Shown here one piece after another: positions 12,545 to 17,083 of a stretch of DNA of 64,000 bases (position 1 is the stretch's first letter; each line of letters begins with the position of its first letter). Location of the stretch: contig NZ_JARGES010000015.1 in assembly GCF_029210365.1 (NCBI RefSeq), positions 1-64,000 on the forward strand, written 5' to 3'. A model generated the notes under the pieces. That model was not told where the DNA came from and made no database searches. It saw only the letters and a list, made by a program, of their open reading frames with translations. Both the position numbers and the translations under genes were made by a program. Source of the DNA: Mesorhizobium sp. YIM 152430. Its GTDB lineage: Bacteria > Pseudomonadota > Alphaproteobacteria > Rhizobiales > Rhizobiaceae.

Positions 12545-13117
12545 CTACATGCCCTGCGGGCCGCGATTCATGGCGGCAACGCCCGTGCGGCACACTTCGG
12601 TCAGCCCCAGCGGCTTCATGATCGCAATGAACTGCTCGATCTTGGAGACACGGCCGGTGATCTCGAAGATGAAATGTTCCGTATTGGCGTCGATGACGCT
12701 GGCCCGAAAGGCATCGGCCAGCCGCAACGCCTCGACGCGGTCCTCGCCCGTGCCCGCAACCTTGACCAGCGCAAGCTCACGCTCGAGCGGCCGGTCGTGC
12801 CCGAGTTCGGCCGCGCGCACCGTCAGGTCGTTGACGCGGTGAACCGGCACGATGCGCTCGAGCTGGTGCTTGATCTGCTGGAGGACATGCGGCGTGCCGC
12901 GGGTGACGATCGTGATCCGCGACAGGTGCTTTTCGTGCTCGGTCTCCGAGACGGTCAGGCTGTCGATGTTGTAGCCGCGGCCGGAAAACAGCCCGATGAC
13001 GCGCGCGAGCACGCCCGGCTCGTTGTCGACCAGCACGGACAGCGTATGTGCCTCCGGCTTCTCGGTTTCCTTGGCGATGAAATAGGCCGAGCCGGTGGGC
13101 TGGAGATGTGCGTTCAT
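12545..13117 (-). CDS. ilvH: Acetolactate synthase small (regulatory) subunit
   Basis: A 190-residue protein with the N-terminal ACT domain HTLSVLVDNEPGVLARVIGL (about residues 20-39), then GRGYNIDSLTV and the C-terminal ALS_ss_C domain. ACT domains bind valine and confer feedback inhibition on the catalytic subunit. It begins 54 bp after the ilvI stop codon on the same strand and shares its attenuated promoter. Confidence 0.97.
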   Translation of the reverse strand: MNAHLQPTGSAYFIAKETEKPEAHTLSVLVDNEPGVLARVIGLFSGRGYNIDSLTVSETEHEKHLSRITIVTRGTPHVLQQIKHQLERIVPVHRVNDLTVRAAELGHDRPLERELALVKVAGTGEDRVEALRLADAFRASVIDANTEHFIFEITGRVSKIEQFIAIMKPLGLTEVCRTGVAAMNRGPQGM

Positions 13118-13171: not shown

Positions 13172-14959
13172 TCAGACCAGCGCCCGGCCCTTGGCGTCGA
13201 TCGCGTTGGCCACCGCCTCGTCCGTCGCCTCGTCCGGCAAAAGCATCTCGTTATGCGCCTTGCCCGACGGGATCATCGGGAAGCAATTGGCCAGGTTCGC
13301 GACGCGGCAGTCGAAGATGACCGGCTTCCTGACGTCGATCATCTCCTGGATCGCATCGTCGAGATCGCCGGGCTTCTCGCAGCGGATGCCATGCCCGCCA
13401 TAGGCTTCCGCCAGCTTGACGAAATCGGGCATCGCCTCGGTGTAGGAATGTGACAGGCGGTTGCCGTGCAGAAGCTGCTGCCACTGGCGCACCATGCCCA
13501 TATACTGGTTGTTCAGGATGAAGATCTTGATCGGCGCCTCATATTGTACCGCGCAGCTCATTTCCTGGATCGTCATCTGAACCGACGCGTCGCCGGCGAT
13601 GTCGATGACGAGCGCGTCGGGATGGGCGATCTGGACGCCGAGCGCGGCAGGAAGGCCATAGCCCATTGTGCCGAGCCCGCCCGAGGTCATCCAGCGGTTC
13701 GGCTTCTCGAAGCCGTAATGCTGGGCCGCCCACATCTGATGTTGGCCGACCTCCGTGGTGATGTAGGTGTCGCGATGTCTCGTCGCCTGGTAGAGCCGCT
13801 GGATCGCGTATTGCGGCATGATCACATCGTCATTCGGCCGATAGGCGAGCGAATCGCGCGCCCGCCATTTCTCGATCTGCTCCCACCAGGGCGAAAGCCG
13901 GGCCTTGTCGGTGCGCGCCGTCGCCCGCCACAGCCGCACCATGTCCTCCATCACGCGCCCGACATCACCGATGATCGGCACGTCGGCCGGCACGTTCTTG
14001 TTGATCGAGGACGGGTCGATGTCGATATGGATCTTCTTGGAATTGGGCGAGAAGGCGTTGAGGCGACCGGTGATGCGGTCGTCGAAGCGCGCGCCGATGC
14101 AGACCATGACGTCGCAATCGTGCATCGCCATATTGGCCTCGTAGGTGCCGTGCATACCGAGCATTCCAAGCCAGGCAGGTCCCGAGGCCGGATAGGCGCC
14201 GAGCCCCATCAGGGTCGAGGTGATCGGGAAGCCGGTCAGATCGACCAGTTCGCGCAGGAGGTGACTGGCTTCCGCGCCTGAATTGATGACGCCGCCGCCC
14301 GAATACAGGATCGGGCGTTTTGCATTCGCCATCAGCTCGACGGCCGCCTTGATCGCCTCCATGTCGCCCTGCACCTGGGGATGGTAACTGGTGCGCGGCG
14401 CGGTCTGGGGCGGTGTGTAGATGCCCTTGGCGAACTGCACGTCTTTCGGGATGTCGACGACGACCGGACCGGGCCGGCCGGTGGTGGCGACATGGAACGC
14501 CTCGTGCAGGATGGCGGCAAGCTCGTTGACGTCCTTCACCAGCCAGTTGTGCTTGGTGCAGGGCCGCGTGATGCCGACCGTATCGCATTCCTGGAAGGCG
14601 TCGGAACCGATCAGCGAGGTCGGCACCTGACCGGTGATGCACACGAGCGGGATCGAATCCATCAGCGCGTCCTGAAGCGGCGTCACCGCATTGGTCGCGC
14701 CCGGACCGGAAGTGACGAGCATGACGCCGGCCTTGCCGGTCGAGCGGGCATAGCCTTCCGCCGCATGGCCAGCGCCCTGTTCGTGGCGCACCAGAATGTG
14801 CTGGATATCGTCCTGCTGGAACAGTTCGTCGTAGATCGGCAGCACTGCACCGCCCGGATAGCCGAAGATATGCGCGACGCCGTTGTCGCGAAGGGCCTGG
14901 ACGACCATCTCCGCTCCGGTCATTTCGCGTCGTCCGCTGTCATGTTTGGCGCTGTTCAT
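13172..14959 (-). CDS. ilvI: Acetolactate synthase large (catalytic) subunit
   Basis: A 595-residue ThDP- and FAD-dependent enzyme that joins two pyruvates, or pyruvate and 2-oxobutyrate, in the first common step of branched-chain amino acid synthesis. Visible motifs are GYPGGAVLPIYDEL, the catalytic glutamate in LVRHEQGAGHAAEGYAR, and the ThDP-binding GDASVQMTIQEMSCAV ending in NNQYMGMVRQW. The ATG at 14959 gives the normal family start; a longer frame reads into the leader region and is rejected. Expression is probably controlled by the attenuator at 14995-15108. Confidence 0.97.
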   Translation of the reverse strand: MNSAKHDSGRREMTGAEMVVQALRDNGVAHIFGYPGGAVLPIYDELFQQDDIQHILVRHEQGAGHAAEGYARSTGKAGVMLVTSGPGATNAVTPLQDALMDSIPLVCITGQVPTSLIGSDAFQECDTVGITRPCTKHNWLVKDVNELAAILHEAFHVATTGRPGPVVVDIPKDVQFAKGIYTPPQTAPRTSYHPQVQGDMEAIKAAVELMANAKRPILYSGGGVINSGAEASHLLRELVDLTGFPITSTLMGLGAYPASGPAWLGMLGMHGTYEANMAMHDCDVMVCIGARFDDRITGRLNAFSPNSKKIHIDIDPSSINKNVPADVPIIGDVGRVMEDMVRLWRATARTDKARLSPWWEQIEKWRARDSLAYRPNDDVIMPQYAIQRLYQATRHRDTYITTEVGQHQMWAAQHYGFEKPNRWMTSGGLGTMGYGLPAALGVQIAHPDALVIDIAGDASVQMTIQEMSCAVQYEAPIKIFILNNQYMGMVRQWQQLLHGNRLSHSYTEAMPDFVKLAEAYGGHGIRCEKPGDLDDAIQEMIDVRKPVIFDCRVANLANCFPMIPSGKAHNEMLLPDEATDEAVANAIDAKGRALV

Positions 14960-14994
14960 GGGTGTGGTCCGGTTTCTGGCTATGTTCGGGAAAC

Positions 14995-15017
14995 AAAAAA
15001 GGCCCCCGTCGGGAGCC
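14995..15017 (-). terminator. Attenuator (intrinsic terminator) in the ilvIH leader
   Basis: On the minus strand GGCTCCC (15017-15011) pairs with GGGGGCC (15007-15001), with one G-U pair and a 3-nt loop, followed by TTTTTT. It lies between the leader peptide stop codon and the ilvI start, 35 bp before the gene. The competing pairing CCGCCGGG (15051-15044) with CCCGACGG (15013-15006), 7 of 8 bases, overlaps its left arm and is a candidate antiterminator. Confidence 0.85.
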
Positions 15018-15051
15018 TGCGTGTTGCGCATGGGGTGCTTTCGCCCGGCGG

Positions 15052-15108
15052 TTACACCGCCTTGCCCACGCGCAATCCTACTACGAGAATGAGTGCCGTC
15101 TTCAACAT
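15052..15108 (-). CDS. ilv leader peptide (attenuation)
   Basis: The 18-residue ORF MLKTALILVVGLRVGKAV has nine branched-chain residues (four Leu, one Ile, four Val), including the uninterrupted run LILVV. It lies directly before an intrinsic terminator in front of ilvI, the classical organisation of transcription attenuation by leader translation. The stop codon sits in a small hairpin GGCGGT-GTA-ACCGCC. Codons 12-15 (TTGCGCGTGGG, 15075-15065) can pair over 11 bp with CCCATGCGCAA (15034-15024). The promoter at 15116-15145 places the transcription start at about 15108-15109, so the AUG would be at or one base from the 5' end: a leaderless leader ORF, as described for trpL of Sinorhizobium meliloti. 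No Shine-Dalgarno sequence is visible, which agrees. Confidence 0.85.
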   Translation of the reverse strand: MLKTALILVVGLRVGKAV

Positions 15109-15115
15109 GGCGGTG

Positions 15116-15145
15116 AGATTAGGCGGAGCACATAAGAACTGTCAA
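15116..15145 (-). promoter_or_regulatory. Promoter of ilvIH leader
   Basis: A perfect -35 box TTGACA (15140-15145) and a -10 box TAATCT (15116-15121) with an 18-bp spacer, on the minus strand. The predicted start is 15108-15109, at the AUG of the leader peptide. Confidence 0.75.
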
Positions 15146-15268
15146 TGGCGCCGACGGCGCAATTTCCTTGCGCAAGGCACCGCAGCTTAACCCGACGTGA
15201 ACCATCCCCCCGAACGTCACCTTAACCCCGGTCGCCTAGCCTGTATCGGTTATCGGGGGAAATGCGCG

Positions 15269-17083
15269 ATGTATGTTGAGCGAACGGGACATGAAGGCGA
15301 TGCCGTCAGTCAGGAACGGCGCGACACGCTTCAACCCGAATCGCGCGTGCTCGGCCGCGTCATCCAGTGCGACGGCGCACGGGCCACGGTGGCGGCCATC
15401 GCCGACGGGATGCAGACGGCGAGCGACGGCCTCTGGGCCGTCGGGCGCATGATCTCGATCAATCTGGGCGCAGCCCGCACCGTCGGCCTCGTCTATGCCA
15501 TCGAGACGCCGCACTCCGAATGGAACGACAGCGCCGACAACACGCTGATCGTGCGCATCGAACTCGTCGGCGAGGTTCGCGATATATCCGGCAAGCCGCA
15601 TTTCGATCGCGGCATCACGCTTTATCCCCATGTCGGCGCCATCGCGCATCGGATTCGCGCACGCGATCTGGAAGCGGTGTACGATCTGGGCGGCCGGCAG
15701 GCGGTCTCGATCGGCTGCCTCAGCCAGGATCGGCAGATCCTCGCCCGCATCTCGATGGACACGACGCTCAACCGCCATTTCGCGGTGCTCGGCACTACCG
15801 GCGTCGGCAAGTCGAGCGCGGTCGCCCTCCTGTTGCGCAAGGCCGTCGACGCCAATCCCGAACTGCGGGTCCTCATCCTCGACCCGCACAACGAATTCCA
15901 CGCCGCCTTTCCCGACCGCTCGATACGCATCGACACCAATTCGCTCGACATGCCGTTCTGGCTGTTCCGGCTGGAAGAACTGGCCGAGGTCCTGTTCCGC
16001 GGCCGCGACGCGGTGGCGGAAGAAGTGGATCTCTTGCGCGACCTGATCCCCGCCGCCAAGAGCCGCTATCACCGCCCCTCGTCCTCGGCGACGCTCCTGC
16101 GGCGCGGCGCGGACACGATGTCGGTCACCGCCGATACGCCCGTCCCCTATCGCATGGTCGACCTGATCAAGCTGATCGACGAGCGGATGGGAATGCTGGA
16201 ATCGAAGATGGAGCGGCCGCATTGCCGGGCCTTGCGCGCGCGCATCGAATCCGCGCTGGCCGACCCGCGCTACCGCTTCATGTTCGCCTCGCGGCTGATC
16301 GAGGACAATCTGCACGAGGCGATCGGCAAGATCTTCCGCGTGCCTCATCACGGCAAGACGATCACCTGTTTCGAGCTTGCGGGCCTGCCCTCCGAGGTCG
16401 TCAATTCGGTCTGCTCGGTCCTGTCGCGCCTCGCTTTCGACCTGGCCGCCGGCTCGAAGGGACGCCTGAAACTGCTCGTCCTGTGCGAGGAAGCCCATCG
16501 CTACATGCCCGCCGATCACCGGCTCGGCTTCGCTCCGACGCGCCATGCCTTGTCGCGCATCGCCAAGGAAGGCCGCAAATATGGCTGCTATCTCGGCGTC
16601 GTGACCCAGCGCCCCGGCGAACTCGACCCGACCGTCCTGTCGCAGTGCTCGACCATCTTCGCCATGCGCCTCGCCAATGAGCGCGATCAGGAGATCATCC
16701 GCTCGGCCATCGCCGATTCGTCCGCCTCCACCCTTGCCTTCCTCTCCTCGATGGGCCAGCGCGAGGCGATCGCTTTCGGCGAAGGCGTCGCGACCACGAT
16801 GCGCATGAAGTTCGAGACGCTGAAGCCGCACGAACTGCCCGGCCGGCCGCAGGAGGTCGCCGATGCCGCCGCCCATCCCGGCGAGATCGACCTTCACGCG
16901 CTCGTCCAGGGTCTGCGCGGCGAAGGCCCGGCATTCGTTCCCGACGATTTCGGCCCGATGATCGGAGACGATCCGTTCGAGCGGCTTGCCGCCGCCCTCG
17001 ACTCCCCGCCGCCGCGCGCGCCGCTCGCCAGCATTCGCCGTCCCGGCGACGACGAGGCGCTACGCCGTCTCTACGAGGACTGA
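15269..17083 (+). CDS. HerA-like hexameric ATPase (FtsK-HerA superfamily)
   Basis: A 604-residue protein. The N-terminal part (residues about 25-165) resembles the HAS-barrel of HerA. Walker A is GTTGVGKS (175-182), followed by LILDPHNEFH; Walker B is LLVLCEEAHRYMP; the arginine-finger/sensor region GCYLGVVTQRPGELDPTVLS precedes FAMRLANERDQ. HerA ATPases translocate DNA, in archaea with the NurA nuclease for end resection; bacterial relatives act in DNA repair or in defence systems. No NurA-like or other nuclease gene is adjacent, so the partner is unknown. The ATG at 15269 has GGGGGA at 8-9 nt; the upstream extension overlaps the promoter region. Confidence 0.85.
   Translation: MYVERTGHEGDAVSQERRDTLQPESRVLGRVIQCDGARATVAAIADGMQTASDGLWAVGRMISINLGAARTVGLVYAIETPHSEWNDSADNTLIVRIELVGEVRDISGKPHFDRGITLYPHVGAIAHRIRARDLEAVYDLGGRQAVSIGCLSQDRQILARISMDTTLNRHFAVLGTTGVGKSSAVALLLRKAVDANPELRVLILDPHNEFHAAFPDRSIRIDTNSLDMPFWLFRLEELAEVLFRGRDAVAEEVDLLRDLIPAAKSRYHRPSSSATLLRRGADTMSVTADTPVPYRMVDLIKLIDERMGMLESKMERPHCRALRARIESALADPRYRFMFASRLIEDNLHEAIGKIFRVPHHGKTITCFELAGLPSEVVNSVCSVLSRLAFDLAAGSKGRLKLLVLCEEAHRYMPADHRLGFAPTRHALSRIAKEGRKYGCYLGVVTQRPGELDPTVLSQCSTIFAMRLANERDQEIIRSAIADSSASTLAFLSSMGQREAIAFGEGVATTMRMKFETLKPHELPGRPQEVADAAAHPGEIDLHALVQGLRGEGPAFVPDDFGPMIGDDPFERLAAALDSPPPRAPLASIRRPGDDEALRRLYED

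Follow-up and report, generated by a model that had tools for sequence, protein, structure and literature searches.

A branched-chain leader-peptide attenuator upstream of ilvIH in Mesorhizobium and its relatives, probably with a leaderless start

Described attenuators and the leader upstream of ilvIH

In Escherichia coli, ilvIH, which comprises the same enzyme genes as the locus described here, is controlled by Lrp and is not known to have an attenuator. Another system to compare with our leader is trpL of Sinorhizobium meliloti, whose RNA, rnTrpL, is described as beginning at the trpL ATG (PMC7298713; PMC10117765). Both are leader-peptide attenuators from the same bacterial group with superimposable promoters, trpL being leaderless and our leader predicted to be so; unlike our leader, trpL contains Trp codons, precedes trpE and acts in trans as both an RNA and a peptide. 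The ilvBNC leader of Corynebacterium glutamicum is also an ilv attenuator, whose transcript is described as beginning one base away from the start codon of the leader, with no ribosome-binding site (PMC11857589), although this organism is an actinobacterium with a different leader and different hairpins and the likeness is probably due to convergence. In Caulobacter crescentus an acetolactate synthase operon is likewise described as attenuated at Ile/Val codons (PMC4117421). The RNA family to which our leader belongs, RF02502, was found outside the order in just 3 of 193 genomes of the class, one of them above the cut-off, which does not establish homology with the leader of Caulobacter.

An ilv leader in Rhizobiales is already predicted in print, earlier than the first-pass annotation of this DNA had assumed. 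Vitreschak 2004 is cited for a named alphaproteobacterial ilvB leader peptide (PMC1273637) and for an "ilvIH cis regulatory" entry at S. meliloti SMc01431 (PMC2573895), and as cited there this is likewise a leader-peptide attenuator before ilvI or ilvB; the citing passages make no statement on a leaderless start. Our literature search, which had most subscription papers outside its reach, returned no report of a leaderless ilvI leader in Rhizobiales, no report of an RF02502 leader before a transporter and, under the name Atu_C8, only two papers, on rice and on Mycobacterium, which judging by title and abstract do not deal with this RNA.

The locus lies on a 64,000-nucleotide stretch of DNA from Mesorhizobium sp. 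YIM 152430, the whole of which is referred to here as the window (Table 1). The first-pass annotation had listed a promoter, an 18-residue ORF rich in Leu, Ile and Val, an 11-bp pairing and a terminator followed by six T, and all of these are present in the sequence; the promoter is of the sigma-70 type, and the pairing (P1) joins 15075-15065 with 15034-15024 and includes one G-U. The element matches the Rfam family RF02502 (Atu_C8) over the full length of the model with 103.9 bits (E 1.6e-22; gathering score 50), which makes it a member, and it has the same structure. Rfam files this family as a Rhizobiales sRNA, whereas we read the element as an ilvI leader containing an ORF. The earlier reading of the element as a branched-chain leader-peptide attenuator of ilvI is borne out by the Rfam match, the codons, P1, the terminator and the position before ilvI. 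Overall, we regard the element as belonging to a known type of amino-acid attenuator, and its start as conserved and probably leaderless.

A gene for a HerA-like ATPase (15197-17083; PF01935, 123 bits) is divergent from the leader, and a protein whose N-terminal sequence was judged by eye to be similar occupies the same position in Shinella (L225). A 619-aa frame runs into ilvI from an AUG in P1 strand 2 (window 13172-15031) and could mislead gene callers into placing the start of ilvI within the attenuator. ATGs between the leader stop and the terminator of the representatives fell into the three frames relative to the downstream gene 21, 28 and 28 times, with 10 of the 21 in-frame ones open; since the frame is random in relatives, the 619-aa frame was attributed to chance and rejected as a meaningful start.

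Table 1 Features of the leader and the genes downstream of it, in window coordinates
Feature	Position	Strand	Remarks and basis
Promoter -35 box, TTGACA	15140..15145	-	Read from sequence
Promoter -10 box, TAATCT	15116..15121	-	18-nt spacer to -35 box; 7 nt 5' of ATG; read from sequence
Leader ORF, MLKTALILVVGLRVGKAV*	15052..15108 (ATG 15108-15106)	-	18 codons, nine of them L/I/V
Control-codon block, CTC-ATT-CTC-GTA-GTA (Leu-Ile-Leu-Val-Val, codons 6-10)	15079..15093	-	Conservation of branched-chain residues in representatives
P1 5' strand (strand 1), within ORF	15065..15075	-	Covariation; pairing in representatives
P1 3' strand (strand 2)	15024..15034	-	Stronger than shuffles; covariation; pairing fraction
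Stop-codon hairpin, GGCGGU(GUA)ACCGCC, nested in P1	15047..15061	-	Top APC pairs of the family alignment
Terminator hairpin, AGGCUCCC-GAC-GGGGGCCU	15000..15018 (arms 15018-15011, 15007-15000)	-	Present in 248/248 leaders
Terminator U-tract, six T	14995..15000	-	First T lies in the last pair of the hairpin; read from sequence
Rfam RF02502 (Atu_C8) match, model 1-122 of 122	14985..15106	-	Covariance-model score
ilvI, acetolactate synthase large subunit	13172..14959	-	NF006581, 1219 bits (cut-off 974)
ilvH, acetolactate synthase small subunit	12545..13117	-	NF008864, 222.5 bits (cut-off 119)

Occurrence of RF02502 and position of the promoter

There is one copy of RF02502, the origin of which we take to be Wilms 2012, in the genome that contains the window. 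Within the family of this genome the element was found in 192 of 198 genomes, the six without it measuring 1.2 to 2.0 Mb, and within the order in 138 of 249 (43 above the cut-off). The class-level scan gave 5 of 193 genomes, two of which are members of the order, and included weak matches in G505 and G623; none was found in 14 control genomes. The order-level set comprised 100 of 144 places (138 genomes, six with two), of which 30 were assigned automatically and 70 were picked to span genera, and a further set of 80 loci (L103-L182) consisted of the ones listed among at least 120 matching stretches. Of 257 loci, 256 were given a leader ORF, and L130 was omitted as it came without upstream sequence; L101, L102 (a duplicate of L023), plasmid match H6 (one of ten) and a second G408 copy were also omitted. 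Removing 8 of the 256 loci, which were identical over -60 to +60 or had less than 60 nt upstream, left 248 unique loci.

To call the downstream genes, IlvI from the window and two transporter proteins were used as queries. The leader was followed by ilvI in 242 of the 256 loci and by a transporter in 13, the last (L131) being cut off at the locus end, so the family consists predominantly of ilvI leaders. Genomes with two ilvI copies were also seen, both copies being preceded by an RF02502 leader (L031 in G021; L263 and L264 in G306). These counts, as well as branched-chain codons, rare codons and a P1 placement (see below) that are the needs of a cis sensor, argue against RF02502 being mainly a trans-acting sRNA whose place before ilvI is secondary; the Rfam classification and the trans action of the S. 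meliloti trp attenuator RNA (PMC7298713) argue for it, and we think it very unlikely indeed. The paper of Wilms et al. is itself described as containing 32 sRNAs which look like portions of long 5' UTRs (PMC3738593).

Across the 100 order-level loci, an exact TTGAC stood 35-38 nt from the leader start codon in 32 and 52-74 nt from it in 56, while 12 fitted neither spacing; no distance fell between 39 and 51 nt. Mononucleotide shuffling of the upstream sequences gave a mean of 0.78 per 100 at 34-44 nt and 2.26 per 100 at 52-85 nt. A TTGAC at 35-38 nt places the predicted RNA start at the AUG, and one at 52-74 nt predicts a 5' UTR. We defined a near (leaderless) class by an exact TTGAC 35-38 nt 5' of the leader start codon. 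The start codon and the Shine-Dalgarno (SD) match, which are traits outside the class definition, differed between the near and far groups as expected: among the 248 unique loci, the near class had ATG in 180/180 with a 4-nt SD match in 11, and the far class had 43 ATG and 13 GTG starts with an SD match in 42 of 56. Near-class loci (n = 180) also had T at -14 in 73%, A at -13 in 71%, C at -1 in 93% and C at -2 in 80%. Sets which include L103-L182 are biased to Rhizobiaceae because the search pattern was derived from the leader; the near class within the 100 order-level loci, which do not carry this bias, had 32/32 ATG and 4 SD matches. The 12 unclassified order-level loci had 9 ATG, 3 GTG and 6 SD matches, one having TTGAC at 86. 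Loci of the led class, for example L021-L024, L033 and L035, come from other families of the order and have a 5' UTR, mostly an SD and sometimes a GTG start.

For calibration, trpL was located by exact patterns in 3 of 4 Ensifer/Sinorhizobium genomes and 1 of 5 Agrobacterium-group genomes. None of these four loci had an exact TTGAC in range, their -35 reading TTGC. By eye, the three Ensifer/Sinorhizobium loci have TTGC 37 nt 5' of the ATG and GCTAACA followed by nine bases to the ATG; ilvI leaders of the same genera as the trpL loci have TTGACG 37 nt 5' of the ATG, and in an Agrobacterium ilvI leader the same GCTAACAC is separated from the ATG by eight bases (both also by eye). Position 1 of the RF02502 model coincides with the final G of the leader's AUG codon, a boundary that would fit a 5' end mapped there. 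No Trp leader was found by two patterns in the window's own genome. Four Trp-leader pattern matches in three relatives did not resemble leaders and were not used.

The proposal in the first-pass annotation that the leader is initiated without a 5' UTR gains its backing from comparison, namely the promoter distance, the ATG-only starts, the rarity of SD matches and the match to trpL. We weighed this against a led leader, in which the RNA would start further upstream and the ORF would be initiated by another route. That 56 of the 100 order-level relatives have the 5' UTR version, 42 of the 56 with an SD match, speaks for a led start, as does the fact that promoter position is the one indication of leaderlessness in the window itself; however, no SD match precedes the window's leader ORF, the distance from the -35 box to the ATG is kept at 35-38 nt, GTG or TTG starts number 0 of 180 and trpL has the same geometry, and we consider a led start in the window to be highly improbable. 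The main texts of the S. meliloti start-site (PMC3616915) and ribosome-profiling (PMC10117765) papers do not mention ilvI. The leaderless start of the window's ilvI leader is probably real and conserved.

On an IlvI tree of 134 sequences built by a quick method, the start states need at least 6 changes under parsimony compared with 40.7 with shuffled labels, and all 48 rows from the window's family belong to the near class. With far fewer changes than under shuffled labels, the start state appears to be inherited and rarely switched. Leaderless and led starts, as predicted from promoter position, alternate within one homologous attenuator; several switches in the history of the order are likely but not forced, as the well-supported branches of the tree force just one state change.

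Control codons, conserved helices and the proposed switch

The position of P1 was set by folding and is independent of the codons. P1 was found in 116 of 122 representatives, and in all 116 a branched-chain codon lies three codons 5' of it, with another four codons 5' in 98%; counted from the stop, 90-93% of the 122 representatives have a branched-chain residue at codons -12 to -10. Among the Val codons of the leaders GTA makes up 41% and GTG 42%, compared with 2% and 36% in the window's ilvI, and among their Ile codons ATT makes up 52%, compared with 3%. The first-pass annotation had suggested that the released leader RNA or peptide could act in trans. The N-terminal residues of the peptide are variable, and those that are conserved lie at the control codons and along the P1 strand; its conservation thus goes no further than cis control would require. 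This variation outside the branched-chain block and the P1 codons counts against a function of its own for the released leader peptide, for which peTrpL of S. meliloti provides a precedent (PMC7298713). The counterparts of peTrpL in other species are described as sharing nothing in sequence except Trp residues (PMC7298713), so residue variation alone would not decide the matter; we regard a separate function of the peptide as improbable.

The terminator was found at the same place in 248/248 unique leaders, whereas 20 shuffling rounds gave on average 0.25 and at most 2 such terminators per 248. Among the 122 representatives P1 and the terminator were each stronger than shuffles in 98%, and the stop-codon hairpin in 93%. 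The four highest-ranking covarying pairs of a structure-blind alignment all belonged to P1; the nine core pairs of P1 were paired in a fraction of 0.78-1.0 and the two outer pairs in 0.33 and 0.44. Mean paired fractions over the 122 representatives were 0.83 for P1 and 0.87 for the terminator. The stop-codon hairpin, which supplied the two top APC pairs of the family alignment where P1 hardly varies, had a mean paired fraction of 0.61 at the level of the order, its columns being poorly aligned there. Covarying pairs were seen in each of the three helices.

The first-pass annotation had also proposed an antiterminator, CCGCCGGG (15051-15044) with CCCGACGG (15013-15006), and this pairing is present in the window but not conserved in its relatives; P1 and the terminator are conserved and covary. 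If this pairing were the antiterminator of a classical three-hairpin attenuator, a ribosome at the stop codon would mask it, as the trp model demands, and the window does form 7/8 pairs and a duplex of -11.9 kcal/mol for wider segments. However, the fraction paired over the 122 representatives was 0.36, the same as for six slid versions (0.30-0.39), the segment pair was weaker than shuffles (mean z +0.46), and, as read from the sequences, only 6/8 pairs form in L261, from the same genus, and 4/8 in L260, making the three-hairpin arrangement unlikely. Five antiterminator candidates, the one above and four others, were all weaker than shuffles and were rejected. A windowed scan against both terminator arms gave no conserved antiterminator, the best mean gains being 0.7-0.8 kcal/mol near the last ORF codons. 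Two of the 40 top covarying pairs link a terminator arm to upstream RNA, with standard pairs in only 0.23 and 0.32.

When folding was carried out with a masked ribosome, capture of the terminator 5' arm by upstream RNA rose on average from 0.12 with the ribosome 5' of P1 to 0.44 with the ribosome in P1, and from 0.09 to 0.70 in the window's own leader. A ribosome placed at the stop codon also gave high capture (0.47), and termination in fed cells would therefore require that the ribosome be released quickly. Swapped terminator arms were captured slightly more than the leaders' own at all five ribosome positions (for example 0.49 vs 0.44, P = 8e-6), so the computed capture is generic and gives no sign of a co-evolved antiterminator. 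Among the 116 representatives with P1, pairing of the own arm with upstream RNA was below that of swapped arms, as if selected against.

As the terminator arms show no sign of a co-evolved upstream partner, we propose P1 as a protector of the terminator, to be opened by a stall on the last branched-chain codons. The RNA would start at the A of the AUG that opens the leader ORF, or no more than about 2 bases away from it, and ribosomes would begin on this leaderless AUG. With Leu, Ile and Val tRNAs charged, the ribosome would complete the ORF and leave, and P1 would re-form and withhold its downstream strand from the terminator, ending the RNA at the U-tract after approximately 115-120 nt. With charged tRNA in short supply, the ribosome would stall within the Leu/Ile/Val block, chiefly at the rare GTA codons some three codons 5' of P1, and its leading edge would hold P1 open; the freed GC-rich strand 2 may then capture the terminator 5' arm, in a mode differing by lineage, and ilvIH would be transcribed. 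The layout of the element, its conserved helices and the placement of its codons can be read directly from the sequences; the starting base and the switch are what we infer from them. Taken as a whole, the explanation of the element as a ribosome-dependent attenuator of ilvIH with a leaderless AUG and a switch based on the opening of P1 seems to us quite probable.

Copies before a Bcr/CflA-like transporter

Fourteen loci have a leader of the RF02502 family before an MFS transporter and not ilvI: the 13 counted above (L011, L012, L032, L223, L224, L226-L231, L266 and L267) and L300. These copies are leaderless by promoter position in the 12 unique loci of the 13 and in L300 (36 nt). The L226 transporter, the only one classified, scored above the cut-off for Pfam MFS_1; Bcr/CflA efflux models gave it its best scores, which nevertheless fell short of the cut-offs of these models (TIGR00710, 185.6 vs 200.9). 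Eight of the nine plasmid copies examined (Rhizobium, Phyllobacterium) precede the transporter, and the ninth, from Shinella, precedes ilvI. Three of the transporter loci (L032, L266 and L267) are from genomes of the window's family. L011 and L012 come from two genomes of another family, the ilvI leaders of which (L047 and L033) are of the led type, and L300 comes from a genome of another order; the L011 and L300 transporters are 66% identical. The simplest reading of this distribution is that the leader and transporter were transferred together.

A broader possibility, which we put forward tentatively and think rather less likely than otherwise, is that RF02502, with its leaderless start, constitutes a portable sensor of branched-chain tRNA charging, copied from ilvI to the transporter and spread between families and to another order, which would switch the pump on when charging fails by the opening of P1 without a conserved antiterminator.

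These findings suggest a likely function for an Rfam family filed merely as an sRNA. One homologous leader which is leaderless in some families and SD-led in others would also provide a natural experiment, allowing a direct comparison between the two versions of how leaderless initiation affects attenuation. If the portable-sensor reading is true, triggers of the transporter copies could include natural inhibitors of Leu/Ile/Val tRNA synthetases or of acetolactate synthase, and if control of the transporter were shown, the sensing of branched-chain tRNA charging by leader peptides would extend from biosynthesis to transport.
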